Positions 29,494 to 37,534 of a DNA stretch of 64,000 nt are shown here, in pieces (within the stretch, counting starts at the first letter, position 1; every line of letters starts with the position of its first letter). The stretch is from Winslowiella toletana (GTDB taxonomy: Bacteria; Pseudomonadota; Gammaproteobacteria; Enterobacterales; Enterobacteriaceae): assembly GCF_017875465.1 (NCBI RefSeq), contig NZ_JAGGMQ010000001.1:3100001-3164000 (forward strand), read 5' to 3'. The notes under the pieces were generated by a model. The model was not told the origin of the DNA, did no database searches, and saw only the letters and a program-made list of their open reading frames with translations. Position numbers and translations under genes: made by a program.

Positions 29494-30822
29494 ATGCACC
29501 AGAATATCGTTCAGCAATCCGATGGCTATCTGAATAAGACGCCACTGTTTCAGTTTATTTTGTTGTCCTGTCTGTTCCCGCTGTGGGGCTGCGCCGCCAG
29601 CCTGAATGACATCCTGATTACCCAGTTTAAAAGCGTCTTTGCTCTCAGCGATTTCGCCAGTGCGCTGGTGCAGAGCGCCTTCTATGGCGGCTATTTCCTG
29701 ATTGCGATCCCGGCGTCGCTGGTGATCCGCCGTTCCAGCTATAAAATTGCCATTCTGATCGGGCTGGCGCTGTATATCGCCGGTTGCATTATGTTTTATC
29801 CGGCGTCGCATATGGCGACCTACACCATGTTCCTTGCGGCGATTTTCGCTATCGCCATTGGTCTGAGCTTCCTTGAAACCGCGGCCAACACCTACAGCTC
29901 AATGATTGGCGATCGTCAGCATGCTACGCTGCGCCTGAATATCAGTCAGACCTTCTATCCGGTCGGCGCGCTGATGGGGATTGTACTGGGTAAATATCTG
30001 GTGTTTCAGGATGGCGACAGTTTGCAGAGCCAGATGGCGACGATGAACGCAGAGCAGATTCACCAGTTTCGTCTGACGATGCTGGAGCACACGCTGGAAC
30101 CCTATAAATATCTGATTATGGTGCTGGTGGTGGTGATGCTGCTGTTTCTGCTGACGCGTTACCCGCGCTGTAAGCCGGAAAGTGCTGGCAAAAAGCTGCC
30201 GGGACTGGCGGAAACCTTCAGCTATCTGGCGAAAAATCGCCACTTTAAGCGCGGCATTGTGGCGCAGTTTCTCTATGTTGGTATGCAGGTGGCGGTATGG
30301 TCATTTACCATTCGTCTGGCGCTGAATCTTGGCGCCACCAATGAGCGTCACGCCTCCAACTTTATGATCTACAGCTTTATCTGTTTCTTTATCGGCAAGT
30401 TTGTCGCCAACTTCCTGATGACGCGTTTCCGCGCCGAGAAAGTGCTGATTGCTTACTCCATCGCCGGGGTGGTGACGCTGGCTTATGTGATGCTGGTGCC
30501 GAACTTTACCGCCGTCTATGCCGCAGTCTTTGTCAGCGTGCTGTTTGGCCCCTGCTGGGCGACCATTTATGCCGGCACCCTGGCGACGGTCGATAACCGA
30601 TACACCGAAGTTGCTGGTGCTTTTATTGTGATGGCGATTGTCGGCGCCGCCTTTGTGCCCGCCTTGCAGGGTCTGGTCTCTGACCATCTCGGCTCGATGC
30701 AGCTGGCGTTTGGCGTGTCGCTGCTCTGTTTTGCCTGGGTCGGATTCTATTTCTGGGGTGAGCTGCGCCATAAAAAACAGCCGCTGGCGCAGGGCGCTGC
30801 ATTTGTCGGGGAGGCACGATGA
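29494..30822 (+). CDS. deoP: DeoP, deoxyribose permease (FucP-type MFS)
   Basis: A 442-residue membrane transporter with about twelve helices. It belongs to the fucose:proton symporter branch of the major facilitator superfamily (FPLWGCAASLNDILITQF, SLVIRRSSYK, SFLETAANTYSSMIG). Its place between deoK and deoX and its similarity in length to Salmonella DeoP (438) point to 2-deoxyribose uptake. It lies 14 bases after deoK and its stop overlaps the deoX start. Confidence 0.9.
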   Translation: MHQNIVQQSDGYLNKTPLFQFILLSCLFPLWGCAASLNDILITQFKSVFALSDFASALVQSAFYGGYFLIAIPASLVIRRSSYKIAILIGLALYIAGCIMFYPASHMATYTMFLAAIFAIAIGLSFLETAANTYSSMIGDRQHATLRLNISQTFYPVGALMGIVLGKYLVFQDGDSLQSQMATMNAEQIHQFRLTMLEHTLEPYKYLIMVLVVVMLLFLLTRYPRCKPESAGKKLPGLAETFSYLAKNRHFKRGIVAQFLYVGMQVAVWSFTIRLALNLGATNERHASNFMIYSFICFFIGKFVANFLMTRFRAEKVLIAYSIAGVVTLAYVMLVPNFTAVYAAVFVSVLFGPCWATIYAGTLATVDNRYTEVAGAFIVMAIVGAAFVPALQGLVSDHLGSMQLAFGVSLLCFAWVGFYFWGELRHKKQPLAQGAAFVGEAR

Positions 30823-31835
30823 AAACCACATTACCGCTCCATCCTGCGCTGTTTCAGGAAACGCCACGTACTCTGCTGGATAATGCGCGCTTTAAAGTTG
30901 AGTTGTTTCGCTATCCATCCGGGATTGAAGCAGTGCGGCTGGAGAATGCGCGCGGCTTTGTGATCGTGCTGCCGTTCTACGGCCAGATGGTCTGGGATAT
31001 GCAGTTTGACGGGCAGCGTTTAACCATGGGCAGCGGTTTTAAACAGCCGCTACCGGGTAAGGATATTATCGATACCTACGGCTGCTTTGCTTTTCACTCC
31101 GGGCTGCTGGCGAATGGCTGTCCGGCTGCCGATGATACTCATCCGCTGCACGGTGAGATGGCCTGCGCGCGTCTCGATAATGCCTGGCTGACGCTGGAGG
31201 AAGATCGGCTGGCGCTGCACGGCGATGTGGAATATATCAAGGGATTTGGCCATCACTACCGCGCCGCGCCAGCGGTGACGCTACTGGGAGATACGCCGCG
31301 TATTGAGATCGCCATGCAGGTGACTAACCTCTCCGGCGCAACCATGCCGTTGCAGTATATGTGTCATATGAATTACGCCTGGGTGGCAGATGGGCGCTTT
31401 AGCCAGAATATCCCGGATACGGCGTTTCAGCTGCGCACGTCGATCCCGGCGCATGTTCAGCCAACGCCGCAATGGCTGGACTATACCCAACAGCTGGCAG
31501 CGGCGCCGCAGGCGTTTGACGGCCTGCAGCGGCCAGAAATGTGCGATCCGGAAATCGTGTTTTTTGCCGATAATCTGCCGCAGTATGTGCAACAGGCTGA
31601 ATTTATGCTGCATTCGCCGCAAGGGTATAGCTTTGTCACGCGCTTTGATACCCGCCAGTTCAGCGCCGCGACGCGCTGGCTGCTGCATAATGCCGACCAG
31701 CAGGTGGCCGCCTTTGTGTTACCGGCCACCTGTCGGCCGGAAGGGCATAACGCCGCCAGACGCGCGGGCAGCTTAATCACGCTGGCGGCGGGTGAACAGC
31801 GTCAGTTCCGGGTGGAGACCGGGCTGGCGGATTGA
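30819..31835 (+). CDS. deoX: DeoX, aldose 1-epimerase-like (DUF4432) protein
   Basis: A 338-residue protein of the galactose-mutarotase-like fold. Likely active-site stretches are LHGEMACARL, FGHHYRA and LQYMCHMNYAW. It is the last gene of the deoxyribose operon and overlaps deoP by four bases (ATGA). It probably interconverts the anomers of deoxyribose before phosphorylation; that role is inferred from fold and context. Confidence 0.82.
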   Translation: MKTTLPLHPALFQETPRTLLDNARFKVELFRYPSGIEAVRLENARGFVIVLPFYGQMVWDMQFDGQRLTMGSGFKQPLPGKDIIDTYGCFAFHSGLLANGCPAADDTHPLHGEMACARLDNAWLTLEEDRLALHGDVEYIKGFGHHYRAAPAVTLLGDTPRIEIAMQVTNLSGATMPLQYMCHMNYAWVADGRFSQNIPDTAFQLRTSIPAHVQPTPQWLDYTQQLAAAPQAFDGLQRPEMCDPEIVFFADNLPQYVQQAEFMLHSPQGYSFVTRFDTRQFSAATRWLLHNADQQVAAFVLPATCRPEGHNAARRAGSLITLAAGEQRQFRVETGLAD

Positions 31836-31841
31836 ATTTTT

Positions 31842-31860
31842 GGGCGGCGTATCGCCGCCC
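31842..31860. repeat. GC palindrome between deoX and the peptide synthetase
   Basis: GGGCGGCG-TAT-CGCCGCCC, perfect 8-bp stem, preceded by TTTTT. It starts 6 bases past deoX and ends 3 bases before the stop of the convergent synthetase gene. Confidence 0.7.
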
Positions 31861-31863
31861 GTG

Positions 31864-34800
31864 TCAGCCCATCAGCGCCTCGCCAATCTCCTGATGACAG
31901 TAAATAATTGAGTAGTGATTTGCCGCCAGCGGCACCCGGCGCAGTCTGGCGTTCAATACCGCTAAGCCATTGTCTTCCAGCGCCAGCAGCGCCTGGCCGT
32001 TGGCGGACTGATATTCGCCGGGCGTGGCAAACTGCATCGCTTTAAACAGCGTGATGCGGCTGTGTCGCAGCGGCGCGCTGAGCGGCTGATTACTGAGAAT
32101 AATATCGGTCTGTTCCGCCTGTAGCGCGCGTTGCGCCGCCTGATCTTCAATGCCAATCATCGCCAGCACCATCTCCAGCGTGCCCGGCTCCGCGCGTAGC
32201 TGGAATTCGGTCTGATACACACTGTCCAGCACGCAGATATGAATATCCTGAAAGCCTTGCTGTTCCAGCTGGGCGGCGATCTCCAGCGCGATATTACCGC
32301 CCAGCGACCAGCCGAGCAGCCGTACCGTGCGTTGTGCAGACAAGCCATGCGCCATCATGGCGCGCAGATAGCAAGCGGCCAGATCGCTGAGTGAGTCGAT
32401 ATGCGGCTGGTGAAACAGATTGTAATTATTGATGCCGATGGCGCTCAGTTTACCGTTTAGCGACAACGCGAGATCGCGATAGATCTCACTGCCGACCACT
32501 GCCGGATGAATCATCCATACCTCTTCTGGCGAACACTGGCTATTTAGCGGTTGCAACAGACAGAAGCTGGCCGGGGACTGGTTCAGTTGCGCCAGTAATT
32601 TCTGGATCGGGTTATTGATCGCTTCCGGCGCCAGTTGCTGATCGTCGGCGAGGTTGCGGATCGCCCGCGCCTGGCTGGACAGCGAAGAGTGGGCATACAG
32701 CGTTTTGATATCCAGCCACAGTCCCTGGCGTCGCAGGCGCACCATCAGCTGAATGGCATGAATCGAGTGGCCGCCGAGGGCAAAAAAGTCATCATCACGG
32801 CTGACTTTTTCTACCTGTAAAATTTCCTGCCACCAGCTTGCCAGCAGCTGTTCATCTTCACTTTCCGGCGCCAGACACTGATCGTTGCGGCTTGCTGTCG
32901 GTAGCGGCAGGGCGCGGCGATCGAGTTTGCCATTGGGTGAAAGGGGCCATGCCTGCAACTGCACTAGTGCGGAAGGGATCATATAATCGGGCAATACGCC
33001 GCGCAGATAGCGGTGCAGGCGCGGGCCAAGATCCGGCTGATCGCTGGCGACGAACCATGCCACCAGACGTTTATCACCCTGTTCGTCGTCGCGGGCCATC
33101 ACCACGGCGTCATCGATGCCTTCACACTGACGGATCTGCTGTTCAACCTCAGCGGTCTCAATGCGCACGCCGCGGATTTTGACCTGAAAATCGTTGCGTC
33201 CCAGATATTCAATGCTGCCATCTTCCAGCCAGCGCGCCAGATCGCCGGTTTTATACAGCCGCGCAGCGGGGTCATCACTAAAAGGATCGCGGATAAAGCA
33301 CTCCGCCGTCAGCTGCGGGCGATTAAGATAGCCGCGCGCCACCTGCACGCCGCCAATATAGAGTTCGCCCTTGCTGCCTGGCGGGAGCGGCTGCAGTTGC
33401 GCATCCAGAATATGCAGCTGAGTATTGCTGACTGGTCTGCCAATCGGCACCAGCGGACGCGGATCCTGCGGATGGCAGTGCCAGTGGCTGACATCCACCG
33501 CCGCTTCGGTCGGGCCATACAAATTATACAGCGCCGCGCCCGCCAGTTGCCGATGGCAACGCTGGACGGTAGCCAGCGGCAGTGCTTCGCCGCTGCAGAT
33601 AATTCGTTGCAGGCTGTCGCATTGCGCCATATCGCCGTGACTGAGAAACAGCTGCAACATTGAGGGAACAAAATGAATGGTGGTGATCTGTTGCTGCTGA
33701 ATCAGTGTGCAGAGGTAGTCAGGATCGCGGTGGCCGCCGGGTTTTGCCATCACCAGCCGTGCGCCGCTGATTAATGGCCAGAAAAACTCCCATACCGACA
33801 CATCAAAACTGAAAGGCGTTTTTTGCAGCACCCGATCTTCTGGCGTCAGCTGATACGCCTGCTGCATCCACTGCAAACGGTTGATTACGCCGCGATGTTC
33901 ATTCATCACCCCTTTCGGTTGTCCGGTGGAGCCGGAGGTGTAAATCACATACGCCAGCGAGCGCTGCGGATCGACGCCACTGGCAGGCAGATTCTCTGCG
34001 GCGGCGAACTGCCAGCGCGCGCTATCGCGTTGCAGATGCAGCGCCACCAGACCTGGCGCAACCGCTGAAGCTGTCGCCCGTTCGCCGGCATCGTCGAGCA
34101 GCAGCAGCCGTGCGCCGCTATCCTGCAGCATAGTGCTGAGCCGCTCCTGCGGATAGTCGGGGTCGAGTGGCACATAAGCCGCACCGGCTTTAAGAATGGC
34201 GAGCAGGGCGATGACCAGCTGATTGCTGCGTTCGGCGCACAGCGCCACGCGATCATCACGACCGATGCCCGCCGCGCGCAGATGCCAGGCGAGCTGATTG
34301 GCCTGCTGATTCAGCTCGCTATAGCGGAGTGGCTGGTCGCACCCTCCGAGCGCAATGGCCTGCGGAGTGCGCAGCACTTGCTGTTCAAACAGGCGATGTA
34401 CGCCCCCGGCTGGCGTCCAGGGCTGGGTATGGTGATTCCAGCGCGCCAGTTGTCGTTGCTCTGTCGCCAGCAGCAGCGGCAGCTGCGCCATCGGTAAATC
34501 GGTGGCGGCATCCAGTACGCTTTTCAGCAGGTGGCGCACCCGTGCTGCGGTGCGCATTGCCCACTCTTCGTTAAACCATCCCTGATTAAAATTAAACTCC
34601 AGCAGCGGATCATCCTGCGGATGGTAATGACGCAGATAGATGGTCAGTGGCATCTGTTCATAGCCGTGGTGCATGGCGCTCACTTTTAGCGGCTGATTAT
34701 CCAGTTCAATATCGGTGGGAAAACATTCAAGGGAAAAGGTGATGTCATACAGCTGGCGACGACCCTGCTGGCTCAGGCGCAGCTGGCGATTCAGCTCGGC

Positions 34801-35784
34801 AATCGGGTAACGCTGGTGGCGATAACAGAGACGCAGCTCGCTCGCCACCTGCTGAATTAACTGGCCAAACGGCTGATGGATATCAATCTCAATTTTTAGC
34901 GGGATCATTGAGGAGAACATCCCCAGCGTCTGTTTATGCTGCGCGCCGCAACGGTTGTGTACCGGCACGCCGATAGTCAGGCTCTCCGCCTGCCACAGGC
35001 GCGCATACCAGCAGGTGAGCAGCGCCAGCATAAAGTGCATCACCGAGCCGCCACTCTCTGCGGCATAAGCCTCCATCTGCTGATAGCGCTGATGCGGCAG
35101 AGGGTGGACAATTTGCCGGCTGAGCGAGGCGGCTTGCTGTGTCAACGAAGCCGCTCTTTCGCCCGCCAGCGCACTGGCGGGGGTGCCGGAAAAGCGGCTC
35201 AGCCAGAAGTCGCGATCGGCAGCATAACGCGGAGAGTGCAGATAGGCTTTATCGCTGGCAATAAAGTCCGCATAACGCGTGGCGGCAGGCAGGTCGCCGC
35301 AGGCCCCGGATTTTAACTGCTTATAACGATCGATAATTAAGCGCCCCAGCAGCGACAGGGTGGTGCCGTCGGCAATCAGATGATGAGCGCTAATCAGCCA
35401 CAGGGAATCGGTGGCATTGACTCTGACAAAATGGCAGCGCCACAGCAGCTGGTTATACAGCGGGAAAGGTTTAATAAATGAGACACGCAGATATTCCATT
35501 GCCTGATCGTTTGCCGCCCGTTGCTGCGTAAAGTCGCGATAGTCGATGATTATTTTTTGCCGTGGACGGGTACTCTGGATAATGCCTGATTCATCCTCCT
35601 GCAGGCGAATTCTCAGGGCGTCATGTTGATGTAAAATATCATTAGTTGATTTTTGTAGCAGAGAAATATCGATATCGCGCTTAATTCTCCATATGGCGCC
35701 AATATTATAACAGGGCGTATCCGGCGTGAGTAACTGATCGATTAAAACAGCTTGCTGTACGGTCGTTAAGGGATACACAGGCAT
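31864..35784 (-). CDS. Single-module non-ribosomal peptide synthetase (C-A-PCP-TE)
   Basis: A 1306-residue protein with four domains. Condensation, about 1-430, has the intact catalytic HHLIADG at 134-140. Adenylation, about 460-960, has YTSGSTGQPKG at 615-625. The carrier domain has LGGHSI at 1003-1008 (serine 1007 takes phosphopantetheine). Thioesterase, about 1085-1306, has GWSLGG at 1158-1163, an aspartate in CVLDSVY and a histidine in AANHYS. The ten specificity residues read D661 V662 W665 H704 I729 S731 L755 V763 D764 K953, the serine type. Layout and code resemble EntF, but no catecholate genes, MbtH or phosphopantetheinyl transferase are near. Start ATG 35784 follows GGAGG. The product is unknown. 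Confidence 0.9.
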   Translation of the reverse strand: MPVYPLTTVQQAVLIDQLLTPDTPCYNIGAIWRIKRDIDISLLQKSTNDILHQHDALRIRLQEDESGIIQSTRPRQKIIIDYRDFTQQRAANDQAMEYLRVSFIKPFPLYNQLLWRCHFVRVNATDSLWLISAHHLIADGTTLSLLGRLIIDRYKQLKSGACGDLPAATRYADFIASDKAYLHSPRYAADRDFWLSRFSGTPASALAGERAASLTQQAASLSRQIVHPLPHQRYQQMEAYAAESGGSVMHFMLALLTCWYARLWQAESLTIGVPVHNRCGAQHKQTLGMFSSMIPLKIEIDIHQPFGQLIQQVASELRLCYRHQRYPIAELNRQLRLSQQGRRQLYDITFSLECFPTDIELDNQPLKVSAMHHGYEQMPLTIYLRHYHPQDDPLLEFNFNQGWFNEEWAMRTAARVRHLLKSVLDAATDLPMAQLPLLLATEQRQLARWNHHTQPWTPAGGVHRLFEQQVLRTPQAIALGGCDQPLRYSELNQQANQLAWHLRAAGIGRDDRVALCAERSNQLVIALLAILKAGAAYVPLDPDYPQERLSTMLQDSGARLLLLDDAGERATASAVAPGLVALHLQRDSARWQFAAAENLPASGVDPQRSLAYVIYTSGSTGQPKGVMNEHRGVINRLQWMQQAYQLTPEDRVLQKTPFSFDVSVWEFFWPLISGARLVMAKPGGHRDPDYLCTLIQQQQITTIHFVPSMLQLFLSHGDMAQCDSLQRIICSGEALPLATVQRCHRQLAGAALYNLYGPTEAAVDVSHWHCHPQDPRPLVPIGRPVSNTQLHILDAQLQPLPPGSKGELYIGGVQVARGYLNRPQLTAECFIRDPFSDDPAARLYKTGDLARWLEDGSIEYLGRNDFQVKIRGVRIETAEVEQQIRQCEGIDDAVVMARDDEQGDKRLVAWFVASDQPDLGPRLHRYLRGVLPDYMIPSALVQLQAWPLSPNGKLDRRALPLPTASRNDQCLAPESEDEQLLASWWQEILQVEKVSRDDDFFALGGHSIHAIQLMVRLRRQGLWLDIKTLYAHSSLSSQARAIRNLADDQQLAPEAINNPIQKLLAQLNQSPASFCLLQPLNSQCSPEEVWMIHPAVVGSEIYRDLALSLNGKLSAIGINNYNLFHQPHIDSLSDLAACYLRAMMAHGLSAQRTVRLLGWSLGGNIALEIAAQLEQQGFQDIHICVLDSVYQTEFQLRAEPGTLEMVLAMIGIEDQAAQRALQAEQTDIILSNQPLSAPLRHSRITLFKAMQFATPGEYQSANGQALLALEDNGLAVLNARLRRVPLAANHYSIIYCHQEIGEALMG

Positions 35785-35998
35785 GCGTGCGCCTCCGGCA
35801 AAGGATTGGGCTGTGAGCAATAAAGACAATTAAGTATATAAACTTTTCGCCAAAGCGAAATAAAATGGCGGAATAATTTAACCGTAACAGGAATTATTTA
35901 TTTTAGACGGGGTTCTATTTTAATGCGGTATTATGATCTTTATTTAAGATGCGGATATAATAAATCAATTATCGTCAGGATATCATTGAGAAATAAAA
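35785..35998 (-). other. AT-rich leader of the peptide synthetase gene
   Basis: This stretch between the synthetase start and the urt terminator is AT-rich and has no gene. The synthetase promoter must be here, since the strong terminator just upstream should block read-through from the urt genes. No Fur-like or sigma-54-like site was seen. Confidence 0.5.
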
Positions 35999-36030
35999 CA
36001 GGCGTAAGCGTTAAATACCCTTACGCCTGA
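35990..36030 (-). terminator. Terminator of the urea operon
   Basis: On the minus strand CAGGCGTAAG (36020-36029) pairs with CTTACGCCTG (35999-36008), a perfect 10-bp stem, then TTTTATTT. It lies 13 bases past urtE and separates the urea operon from the synthetase. Confidence 0.8.
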
Positions 36031-36042
36031 AAAATAACATCA

Positions 36043-36741
36043 TTAAATGGCCACCAGCCCGCGTACGCCATCTGCTTCCATACTGTCGCCGCGACCCCGC
36101 CGCACAATCTCACCGCGCGACATCACCAGATAGTTGTCGGCCAGCTCGGCGGCAAAGTCATAGAACTGCTCCACCAGCAGGATCGACATATCACCACGCT
36201 GCGCCAGCTGGCGGATCACCGCGCCGATCTCCTTAATTACCGATGGCTGGATCCCTTCGGTTGGTTCATCCAGGATCAGCAATTGCGGTTTGCAGGCCAG
36301 CGCGCGCCCAATGGCTAATTGCTGCTGCTGACCACCGGAAAGATCACCACCGCGCCGCTGCTTCATCTCTTTGAGTACCGGAAACAGCTGATAGATCTCT
36401 TCCGGCACTTGTCGGGCCTGCGCGGCGGGAAAGCGCGCCAGCCCCATTAACAGATTCTCTTCTACCGTCAGACGCGGAAAGATCTCACGTCCCTGCGGCA
36501 CATAAGCGATGCCCGCCTGTACCCGTTGATGCGGCTTATGCGAGTTAATCACCTTATCCTGCCAGCTGATGGTGCCGGATTTGGCCGGGATCAGCCCCAT
36601 CAGACACTTCAGCAGGGTGGTTTTCCCGACGCCATTGCGACCGAGCAGGCAGGTGACTTCGCCCTGACGGGTTGTAAACGACAGTCCGCGCAGGATATGA
36701 CTGCCACCATAATATTGATTCAGTTCAGATACCTGTAACAT
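36043..36741 (-). CDS. urtE: UrtE, urea ABC transporter ATP-binding protein
   Basis: A 232-residue ATPase. Walker A is GRNGVGKTT (about 37-45), the signature is LSGGQQQQLAIGRAL, and Walker B is LLILDEPTEG with IQPSVIKEIG as in the branched-chain/urea LivF-UrtE branch. Start ATG 36741 (MLQVSELNQYYGG) lies one base from the urtD stop; a longer frame upstream is a shadow of urtD. It powers urea import with UrtD. Last gene of the operon. Confidence 0.93.
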   Translation of the reverse strand: MLQVSELNQYYGGSHILRGLSFTTRQGEVTCLLGRNGVGKTTLLKCLMGLIPAKSGTISWQDKVINSHKPHQRVQAGIAYVPQGREIFPRLTVEENLLMGLARFPAAQARQVPEEIYQLFPVLKEMKQRRGGDLSGGQQQQLAIGRALACKPQLLILDEPTEGIQPSVIKEIGAVIRQLAQRGDMSILLVEQFYDFAAELADNYLVMSRGEIVRRGRGDSMEADGVRGLVAI

Positions 36742-36742
36742 A

Positions 36743-37534
36743 TCAGCGCCCCAGATAAACTTCGATAACCTGCTCGTTGGCCTGCACTTCGCGCAGCGAA
36801 CCTTCCGCCAGCACCTGACCCTGATGCAGTACCGTAACGTGGTCGGCAATGGTTTCCACAAAGCCCATATCGTGCTCCACCACCATCAGCGAATGCTTAC
36901 CGGCGAGGGTGCGAAACAGCTCGGCGGTATACTCGGTTTCGGCATCGGTCATACCGGCGGCAGGCTCGTCGAGCAGCAACAGATGCGGCTCCTGCACCAG
37001 CAGCATACCGATCTCCAGAAACTGTTTTTGTCCGTGGGATAGCAGCCCGGCGGGGCGGCTGCGTTCGGCGCCGAGGCGCAGCAGCTTCAGTACCTCATCG
37101 ATGCGATCCTGCTGTTCGCTGTCCAGCCGCGCGCGCAAACAGGCCCACACCGACTTATCGGTTTTAAGCGCAATTTCCAGATTTTCAGACACCGACAGCG
37201 CCTCAAATACCGTTGGTTTCTGGAATTTGCGGCCAATGCCGCTGCGGGCAATTGCCACCGGCGACAGGCGGGTGAGATCGGTATCCTGATCGTAAATCAC
37301 TTTACCGCTATCAGGCCGCGTTTTTCCGGTGATCACATCCATCAGTGTGGTTTTTCCGGCACCGTTCGGACCGATAACACAGCGCAGTTCACCGACGCCA
37401 ATATTCAGTGACAGATCGGTAAGCGCACGAAAGCCATCAAAGGAAACGTTGATCGCATTCAGCTGCAGGATCGGATCGCTTTGCTGGCGAAAACGATCTG
37501 ACGGATGAGGCTGGGTAAACAGTGGCTCAGTCAT
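36743..37534 (-). CDS. urtD: UrtD, urea ABC transporter ATP-binding protein
   Basis: A 263-residue ATPase of the LivG-UrtD branch. Walker A is GPNGAGKTT (about 54-62), the signature is LSHGQKQFLEIG, typical of UrtD, and Walker B is LLLLDEPAAGM. IGRKFQKPTVFEALSV is a UrtD hallmark. It overlaps urtC by 8 bases and abuts urtE. Confidence 0.95.
   Translation of the reverse strand: MTEPLFTQPHPSDRFRQQSDPILQLNAINVSFDGFRALTDLSLNIGVGELRCVIGPNGAGKTTLMDVITGKTRPDSGKVIYDQDTDLTRLSPVAIARSGIGRKFQKPTVFEALSVSENLEIALKTDKSVWACLRARLDSEQQDRIDEVLKLLRLGAERSRPAGLLSHGQKQFLEIGMLLVQEPHLLLLDEPAAGMTDAETEYTAELFRTLAGKHSLMVVEHDMGFVETIADHVTVLHQGQVLAEGSLREVQANEQVIEVYLGR

Follow-up and report, generated by a model that had tools for sequence, protein, structure and literature searches.

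A probable swrW-type gene for a one-module serratamolide-like synthetase between urtE and deo genes in Winslowiella toletana

What would a peptide synthetase make when it consists of one module and its gene stands alone? The question is raised by a gene at positions 31864..35784, on the minus strand, of the window analyzed here, a 64,000-nucleotide stretch of contig NZ_JAGGMQ010000001.1 of Winslowiella toletana (genome 5.3 Mb, 100% complete), which encodes a nonribosomal peptide synthetase (NRPS) of 1306 amino acids (aa) with condensation (C), adenylation (A), peptidyl carrier (PCP) and thioesterase (TE) domains. A preliminary description of this DNA had recognized the single module, its serine code, active-looking domains and the lack of catecholate partners, and had proposed an ester, lactone or cyclic oligomer as the likely product; these elements stand, though the SwrW architecture and sequence group had been overlooked. 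The gene is read here, with a probability of roughly 0.9, as the counterpart in Winslowiella/Erwinia, orthologous or closely homologous, of swrW, the Serratia gene for the synthetase of serratamolide (serrawettin W1); its enzyme would join a 3-hydroxyacyl group to serine and release a cyclic dimer. Pointing to this reading are intact domains, the serine code, grouping with SwrW, the class of the C domain, a phosphopantetheinyl transferase (PPTase) gene and the lack of catecholate partner genes, all features of the sequence. Only the recognition of a SwrW-type gene in this strain and of its conserved site is new, this kind of system being already known.

The open reading frame (ORF) is complete and intact on the minus strand, and the plus strand of the same interval is rich in stop codons; ORF and domains agree with the earlier account of a complete C-A-PCP-TE protein between deoX and the urea operon, which had omitted the strand. 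Translation is assigned to an ATG at 35784, with GGAGG 8-12 bases upstream, and the longer alternative start listed by the ORF tool, a TTG at 35829, has no GGAGG-like site as judged by eye. Five Pfam families match the protein, all above cut-off: Condensation (residues 3-446, 241 bits), AMP-binding (466-820, 325 bits), AMP-binding_C (879-953), PP-binding (981-1042) and Thioesterase (1089-1223). On the minus strand, the C domain (34447..35778) carries HHLIADG at residue 134, the PCP (32659..32844) carries LGGHS at residue 1003, and the TE (31864..32520), which in the alignment with EntF reaches the C-terminal end, carries GWSLGG at residue 1158 followed by the D (VLDS) and H (NHYSII) that align with the D and H of the EntF thioesterase (LLDT, AHVDII). 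The C and TE domains had previously been called active-looking from the first and last of these motifs, a view that stands at the sequence level. When a strict motif was used to look for the TE triad, 23 of 30 homologue rows matched; among the other seven is a shorter protein of 1176 aa.

The A domain (residues 466-953, 32926..34389) is predicted to activate L-serine. In a MAFFT alignment its code is DVWHISLVDK, compared with DVWHFSLVDK in EntF of E. coli K-12, the ten positions being placed by what we take to be the GrsA numbering; both codes are those read earlier by hand, and no different specificity emerged. The pattern DVWH[IFMVL]SL[VI]DK is kept in all 30 aligned homologues, two of which are shorter.

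The relation to SwrW follows from the homologues. A search returned 208 proteins at E <= 1e-100, the best 120 of which were analyzed, and 30 of these, counting the protein's own entry, share its architecture. The other 29 are 56-66% identical to it, mostly 1310-1331 aa long (two are shorter, at 1176 and 1245 aa), and derive, where a source is named, from Serratia (S. inhibens, S. grimesii, S. nevei, S. plymuthica and S. marcescens), Erwinia and Winslowiella, with one labelled Pseudomonas cerasi; the Serratia proteins among the matches listed are 58-60% identical. The rest of the best 120 are mostly multimodular NRPSs at 27-48% identity, along with a one-module protein labelled Xylophilus ampelinus at 39%. 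By domain, identity to the S. nevei protein (P0024) is 56% for C, 67% for A, 55% for PCP and 56% for TE, and across six rows labelled Serratia it is 54-56% for C and 67-69% for A. According to the parts of the published account drawn on here, swrW encodes a single C-A-T-TE module, occurs in species that include S. marcescens, S. plymuthica and S. grimesii, and has lrgA/lrgB immediately downstream and a CTP synthase gene immediately upstream, with SwrW identities of 81.5-81.7% for S. plymuthica and 77.8-78.2% for S. grimesii (PMC7767323). In one genome of the comparison, G025, the SwrW-type copy adjoins lrgA/lrgB genes and is 98.0% identical to the S. nevei protein, 81.6% to that of S. plymuthica and 78.5% to that of S. 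grimesii. Because this context and these identities match the published values, and from their species labels, the Serratia homologues are taken for SwrW, the SwrW sequence AB193098 itself standing outside the comparison.

A tree of 35 whole proteins, whose single long outgroup makes it unable to test grouping with SwrW against EntF or multimodular NRPSs, separates seven Serratia rows (G025 being counted as one of them) from the rest by one fully supported branch and 11 Erwinia/Winslowiella rows, including the protein studied here and those of two further genomes of its genus, by another; the other 17 rows belong to neither set. No direction of transfer is claimed, since the earliest branching among the SwrW-like proteins has weak support (81/48) and the outgroup is a single long one. 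Of the relatives found that bear a name, Winslowiella arboricola is nearest (synthetase 91%, urtE 96% and ettA 99.8% identical), and a scan of genome contigs with six exact peptide patterns gave matches in W. arboricola, in two distant Rubrivivax metagenome-assembled genomes and nowhere else.

The class of the C domain bears on what is joined to serine. The C-domain phylogeny called for earlier was built from 177 C domains of the best 120 of the 208 proteins plus EntF (100 N-terminal, 73 directly after a carrier domain and 4 other) and midpoint-rooted; as its sample consists of matches to this synthetase, it classifies but does not prove. It places the domain, which is N-terminal and of the starter type, inside a 30-row SwrW group (support 1.0), nested in larger groups of 52 rows (0.995) and 72 rows (0.994), which contain N-terminal C domains only and include one named syringomycin synthetase SyrE and another from Pseudomonas corrugata. 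These two larger groups are inferred to be lipid starters. The EntF C domain lies outside both and joins only at 75 rows (0.971). When the C domain was searched against PDB sequences, the starter domain RzmA-Cs (7C1H) was among the best matches at 97 bits, RzmA-Cs being a structurally solved lipid-starter domain (PMC7804268). With the whole protein, linear gramicidin synthase ranked first and EntF stood in row 9. The tree is preferred over the PDB search since the PDB list mixes starter and ordinary C domains.

Several observations weigh against the SwrW assignment or loosen it. When the C domain alone is searched, the RzmA starter domain is narrowly outranked by a chain of bacitracin synthase 3, and the 72-row group leaves out 28 of the 100 N-terminal C domains, in a sample drawn from matches to this synthetase. 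The SwrW identity of the Serratia proteins depends on labels, context and published identities and not on the AB193098 sequence; in G025, moreover, no CTP synthase was recognized upstream, where an LpxP-like acyltransferase and a 287-aa ORF are found instead. No model named for SwrW appears among the best 25 of 106 NCBIfam matches, of which only a general adenylation-domain model is above cut-off. The lrgAB context of Serratia is not found in the window, where a deoX-like gene lies downstream and the neighbours are deo and urt genes. An identity of 58-60% also leaves space for another acyl chain or ring size. With these reservations, and by analogy with SwrW, the product is likely to be of the serratamolide type.

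The donor, the dimerization, the product and a role in surface spreading are carried over from the SwrW literature. An Sfp/EntD-type PPTase encoded elsewhere in the genome would prime the PCP; a candidate of 275 aa (L021:1030-1857) scores 104.8 bits with the EntD model, below its cut-off of 169, and is above the Pfam cut-offs for 4PPT_N and ACPS. In S. marcescens the PPTase PswP is required (PMC4117218). The A domain would load L-serine, and the starter C domain would take a (3R)-3-hydroxyacyl group of about ten carbons straight from fatty-acid metabolism, as a thioester of acyl carrier protein or coenzyme A, to form N-(3-hydroxyacyl)-serine on the PCP. The TE may then hold one unit, join a second to it and release a cyclic dilactone, a serratamolide-like wetting agent and antibiotic. 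In the published work on Serratia the 3-hydroxydecanoyl units come from fatty-acid biosynthesis and the one-module NRPS specifies only L-serine (PMC5869619). Expression of swrW in P. putida yields serrawettin W1 as a mixture of congeners (PMC6053208), and swrW alone gives drop collapse and thin-layer chromatography results that indicate serrawettin W1 in the same host (PMC11879879); because swrW alone suffices there, no dedicated donor protein should be needed. The earlier claim that a partner carrier protein must be encoded elsewhere thus holds only as an acyl donor from primary fatty-acid synthesis; SwrW needs no partner NRPS, and none was found in the genome. The Serratia product acts in swarming and antibiosis and is hemolytic (PMC3353980). 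Serratamolide A (m/z 515.3329) has been obtained, along with six derivatives, from an Erwinia isolate, Erwinia sp. FHG110488, on the evidence of formula and tandem mass spectrometry, in a section that names no gene (PMC8867984); since this isolate is a close relative, the same chemistry is likely in the present strain.

An enzyme of the SwrW type could still make something else, namely a product with another acyl length or ring size or a linear or monomeric N-acyl-serine (serratamic acid), an alternative that overlaps with the serratamolide reading in its enzyme type and that we consider unlikely. Relative to S. nevei SwrW the C domain (56%) is more divergent than the A domain (67%), and S. 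marcescens makes open-ring and monomeric forms (PMC5869619). Residue R148 of RzmA controls acyl length (PMC7804268), and this protein has Leu at the equivalent position, which we count as the third residue after HHxxxDG; over 30 rows, this protein included, however, there are 16 Ile, 12 Val, 1 Leu and 1 Phe, and Leu, Ile and Val are similar, with the Phe confined to one row. The formula and tandem mass spectra of the Erwinia compound, moreover, are those of serratamolide A itself (PMC8867984).

Two further explanations would place the partners of the enzyme elsewhere in the genome. EntF receives a dihydroxybenzoyl carrier and makes a trimer, and the shared domain order and nearly identical code could mean that this gene serves as EntF in a dispersed catecholate siderophore system, the case that the preliminary description had itself named as overturning its view. 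A genome-wide search for the partner genes, earlier noted as missing from the window, did not find them: the best EntE match reaches 189.6 bits against a cut-off of 723.55 (passed in 2 of 14 control genomes), and none of seven isochorismatase matches coincides with any of the five carrier-domain matches, as an EntB-type fusion would. The sole isochorismate synthase above cut-off (C1:892633-893640), which lies ~4.4 kb from a 472-aa ligase frame (C1:887338-888267), is taken for the MenF of a men cluster. The synthetase itself scores 629 bits on the NCBIfam EntF equivalog, short of the cut-off of 2400, and its C domain belongs to the 52- and 72-row groups that exclude EntF. Upstream of the gene, the best match to what we take to be the 19-base Fur consensus is 11/19, a score of at least 11 being reached by 918 of 1000 mononucleotide shuffles, in keeping with the earlier statement that no Fur-like site is present. 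Separate proteins of single-module size, about 33-39% identical and EntF-like by size only, occur in many genomes of the same family, and G025 has one of these in addition to its SwrW-type copy. On the EntE, isochorismatase, isochorismate synthase and EntF-model results, a dispersed catecholate system was rejected, and its probability is close to negligible. Serine might instead be joined to a partner, aminoacyl or aryl, that a different carrier protein supplies in an unlinked assembly line, given four other carrier-domain matches in the genome, but this too is very improbable. One of the four is taken for AcpP, two lie in an apparent aryl polyene cluster as judged by eye, and the fourth, a frame of 103 aa, scores right at the cut-off (20.5-20.8 bits); the genome has no other NRPS module, and the C domain classes with N-terminal starters. 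A partner NRPS was rejected as a candidate, the only other Condensation match being a lone PapA-like protein without a module. This protein of 419 aa (L072:7241-8500; C1:4659240-4660499) scores 37.7 bits for Condensation and 45.3 bits for PapA_C and is acyltransferase-like, and the 543-aa protein upstream of it (L072:3494-5125) has no Pfam or NCBIfam match at the thresholds used. The presumed aryl polyene locus (C1:4416205-4418138; L074) contains two small carrier proteins and an AMP-binding match.

To return to the SwrW-type reading, the distribution of the gene bears on the history of its locus. Related genomes and their neighbouring genes, which the preliminary description had proposed to search, were compared: a full-length copy at >=57% identity occurs in 15 of 37 genomes of the window's GTDB genus, with deoX or deoR within 1.5 kb in 14 of the 15 and urtE in 11. 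Conversely, 20 of the 27 urtE genes found were examined for neighbours; the NRPS lies within 1.5 kb in eight, deoX instead in one, deoR instead in seven and none of these in four. At the empty sites, urtE is followed by deoX (L081) or deoR (L085-L090, L092) with no NRPS between. Because 15 of 37 genus genomes carry it, mostly at the deo/urtE site, and other sites are empty, the gene looks like a settled but dispensable chromosomal resident and not a recent strain-specific insertion. Among 16 loci with 1.5-kb flanks, lrgAB occurs only in G025, and adjacency to lrgAB is not needed for function. In a sample of 295 genomes from the same family, with two candidates scored in each, 138 have a match at E <= 1e-100 and four of these are of SwrW type by identity. 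Other species of the genus have NRPSs 56-63% identical to the query (91% in W. arboricola), with adjacent urtE at 82-96% (window 31864-36861; L040, L042, L095-L106), a difference that may reflect either fast change or replacement at the same site. A second NRPS stretch occurs in two other genomes (G222:C1:361972-363879 and G322:C20:41786-43693), where an A-PCP portion of a 1165-aa frame is 55% identical to that of the query and has more NRPS matches near it.

The immediate surroundings, given as context, are urtE (36043..36861, minus strand, by profile match and locus comparison) and urtD, both upstream on the gene's own strand, and a convergent deoX-like DUF4432 gene (30819..31835, plus strand, by Pfam and locus comparison) 28 bases from the end of the NRPS gene. 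The 258-base intergenic region at 35785..36042 is AT-rich (35% GC), has the GGAGG at 35792-35796 on the minus strand, and probably holds a promoter of the gene's own; a promoter scan gave 3 matches with 2.9 expected. Past urtE lies a terminator-like hairpin (35990..36029, minus strand) with a 10-pair outer stem followed by TGTTTTATTT; a 65-base stretch there folds at -21.1 kcal/mol. The hairpin scan did not report it, its loop exceeding the length that the scan allows. Because this hairpin lies between urtE and the NRPS gene, the latter is probably its own transcription unit, set apart from the urt operon. Where the deoX-like gene and the NRPS gene converge, a perfect inverted repeat, GGGCGGCG-TAT-CGCCGCCC, occupies 31842-31860 between their ends, with its T's on the plus-strand 5' side and not after it.

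If the SwrW-type reading is correct, the gene offers a likely genetic basis for the serratamolide found in an Erwinia isolate and predicts surface-wetting and antimicrobial lipids in Erwinia/Winslowiella, where it keeps one chromosomal site that is empty in related species. The partly consulted open-access literature yielded no naming of a swrW-type gene outside Serratia; among PMC3353980, PMC8880026, PMC4117218 and PMC8867984, only the last demonstrates the compound in Erwinia. The copies, one-gene lipopeptide synthetases that agree in serine code and vary in starter domain, would also form a natural series in which the control of acyl length can be tested. A bolder proposal, which we regard as doubtful, is that the urtE-deo synthetases of Erwinia/Winslowiella change far more quickly than the genes beside them and have branched out into different lipids, that the serine lipodepsides of this strain differ in acyl chain or ring size from Serratia serratamolide, and that the Serratia gene is a transferred branch of an Erwiniaceae family.

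Set beside known systems, the protein shares with EntF of E. coli its domain order and a serine code differing at one position, whereas identity is 21% for C, 47% for A, 30% for PCP and 26% for TE, and no EntE/EntB partners were found in its genome. Like RzmA-Cs (7C1H), it has at its N terminus a C domain for acylating the first amino acid with an acyl thioester, although RzmA-Cs is the starter of rhizomide, another lipopeptide, and uses acetyl-CoA (PMC7804268). The closest likeness is to Serratia SwrW, with which it has in common one C-A-T-TE module of about 1310 aa, the serine code, a starter C domain and the lack of a partner NRPS; it departs from SwrW in its overall identity of 58-60% and in its place between urtE and deo genes, where SwrW lies beside lrgAB.

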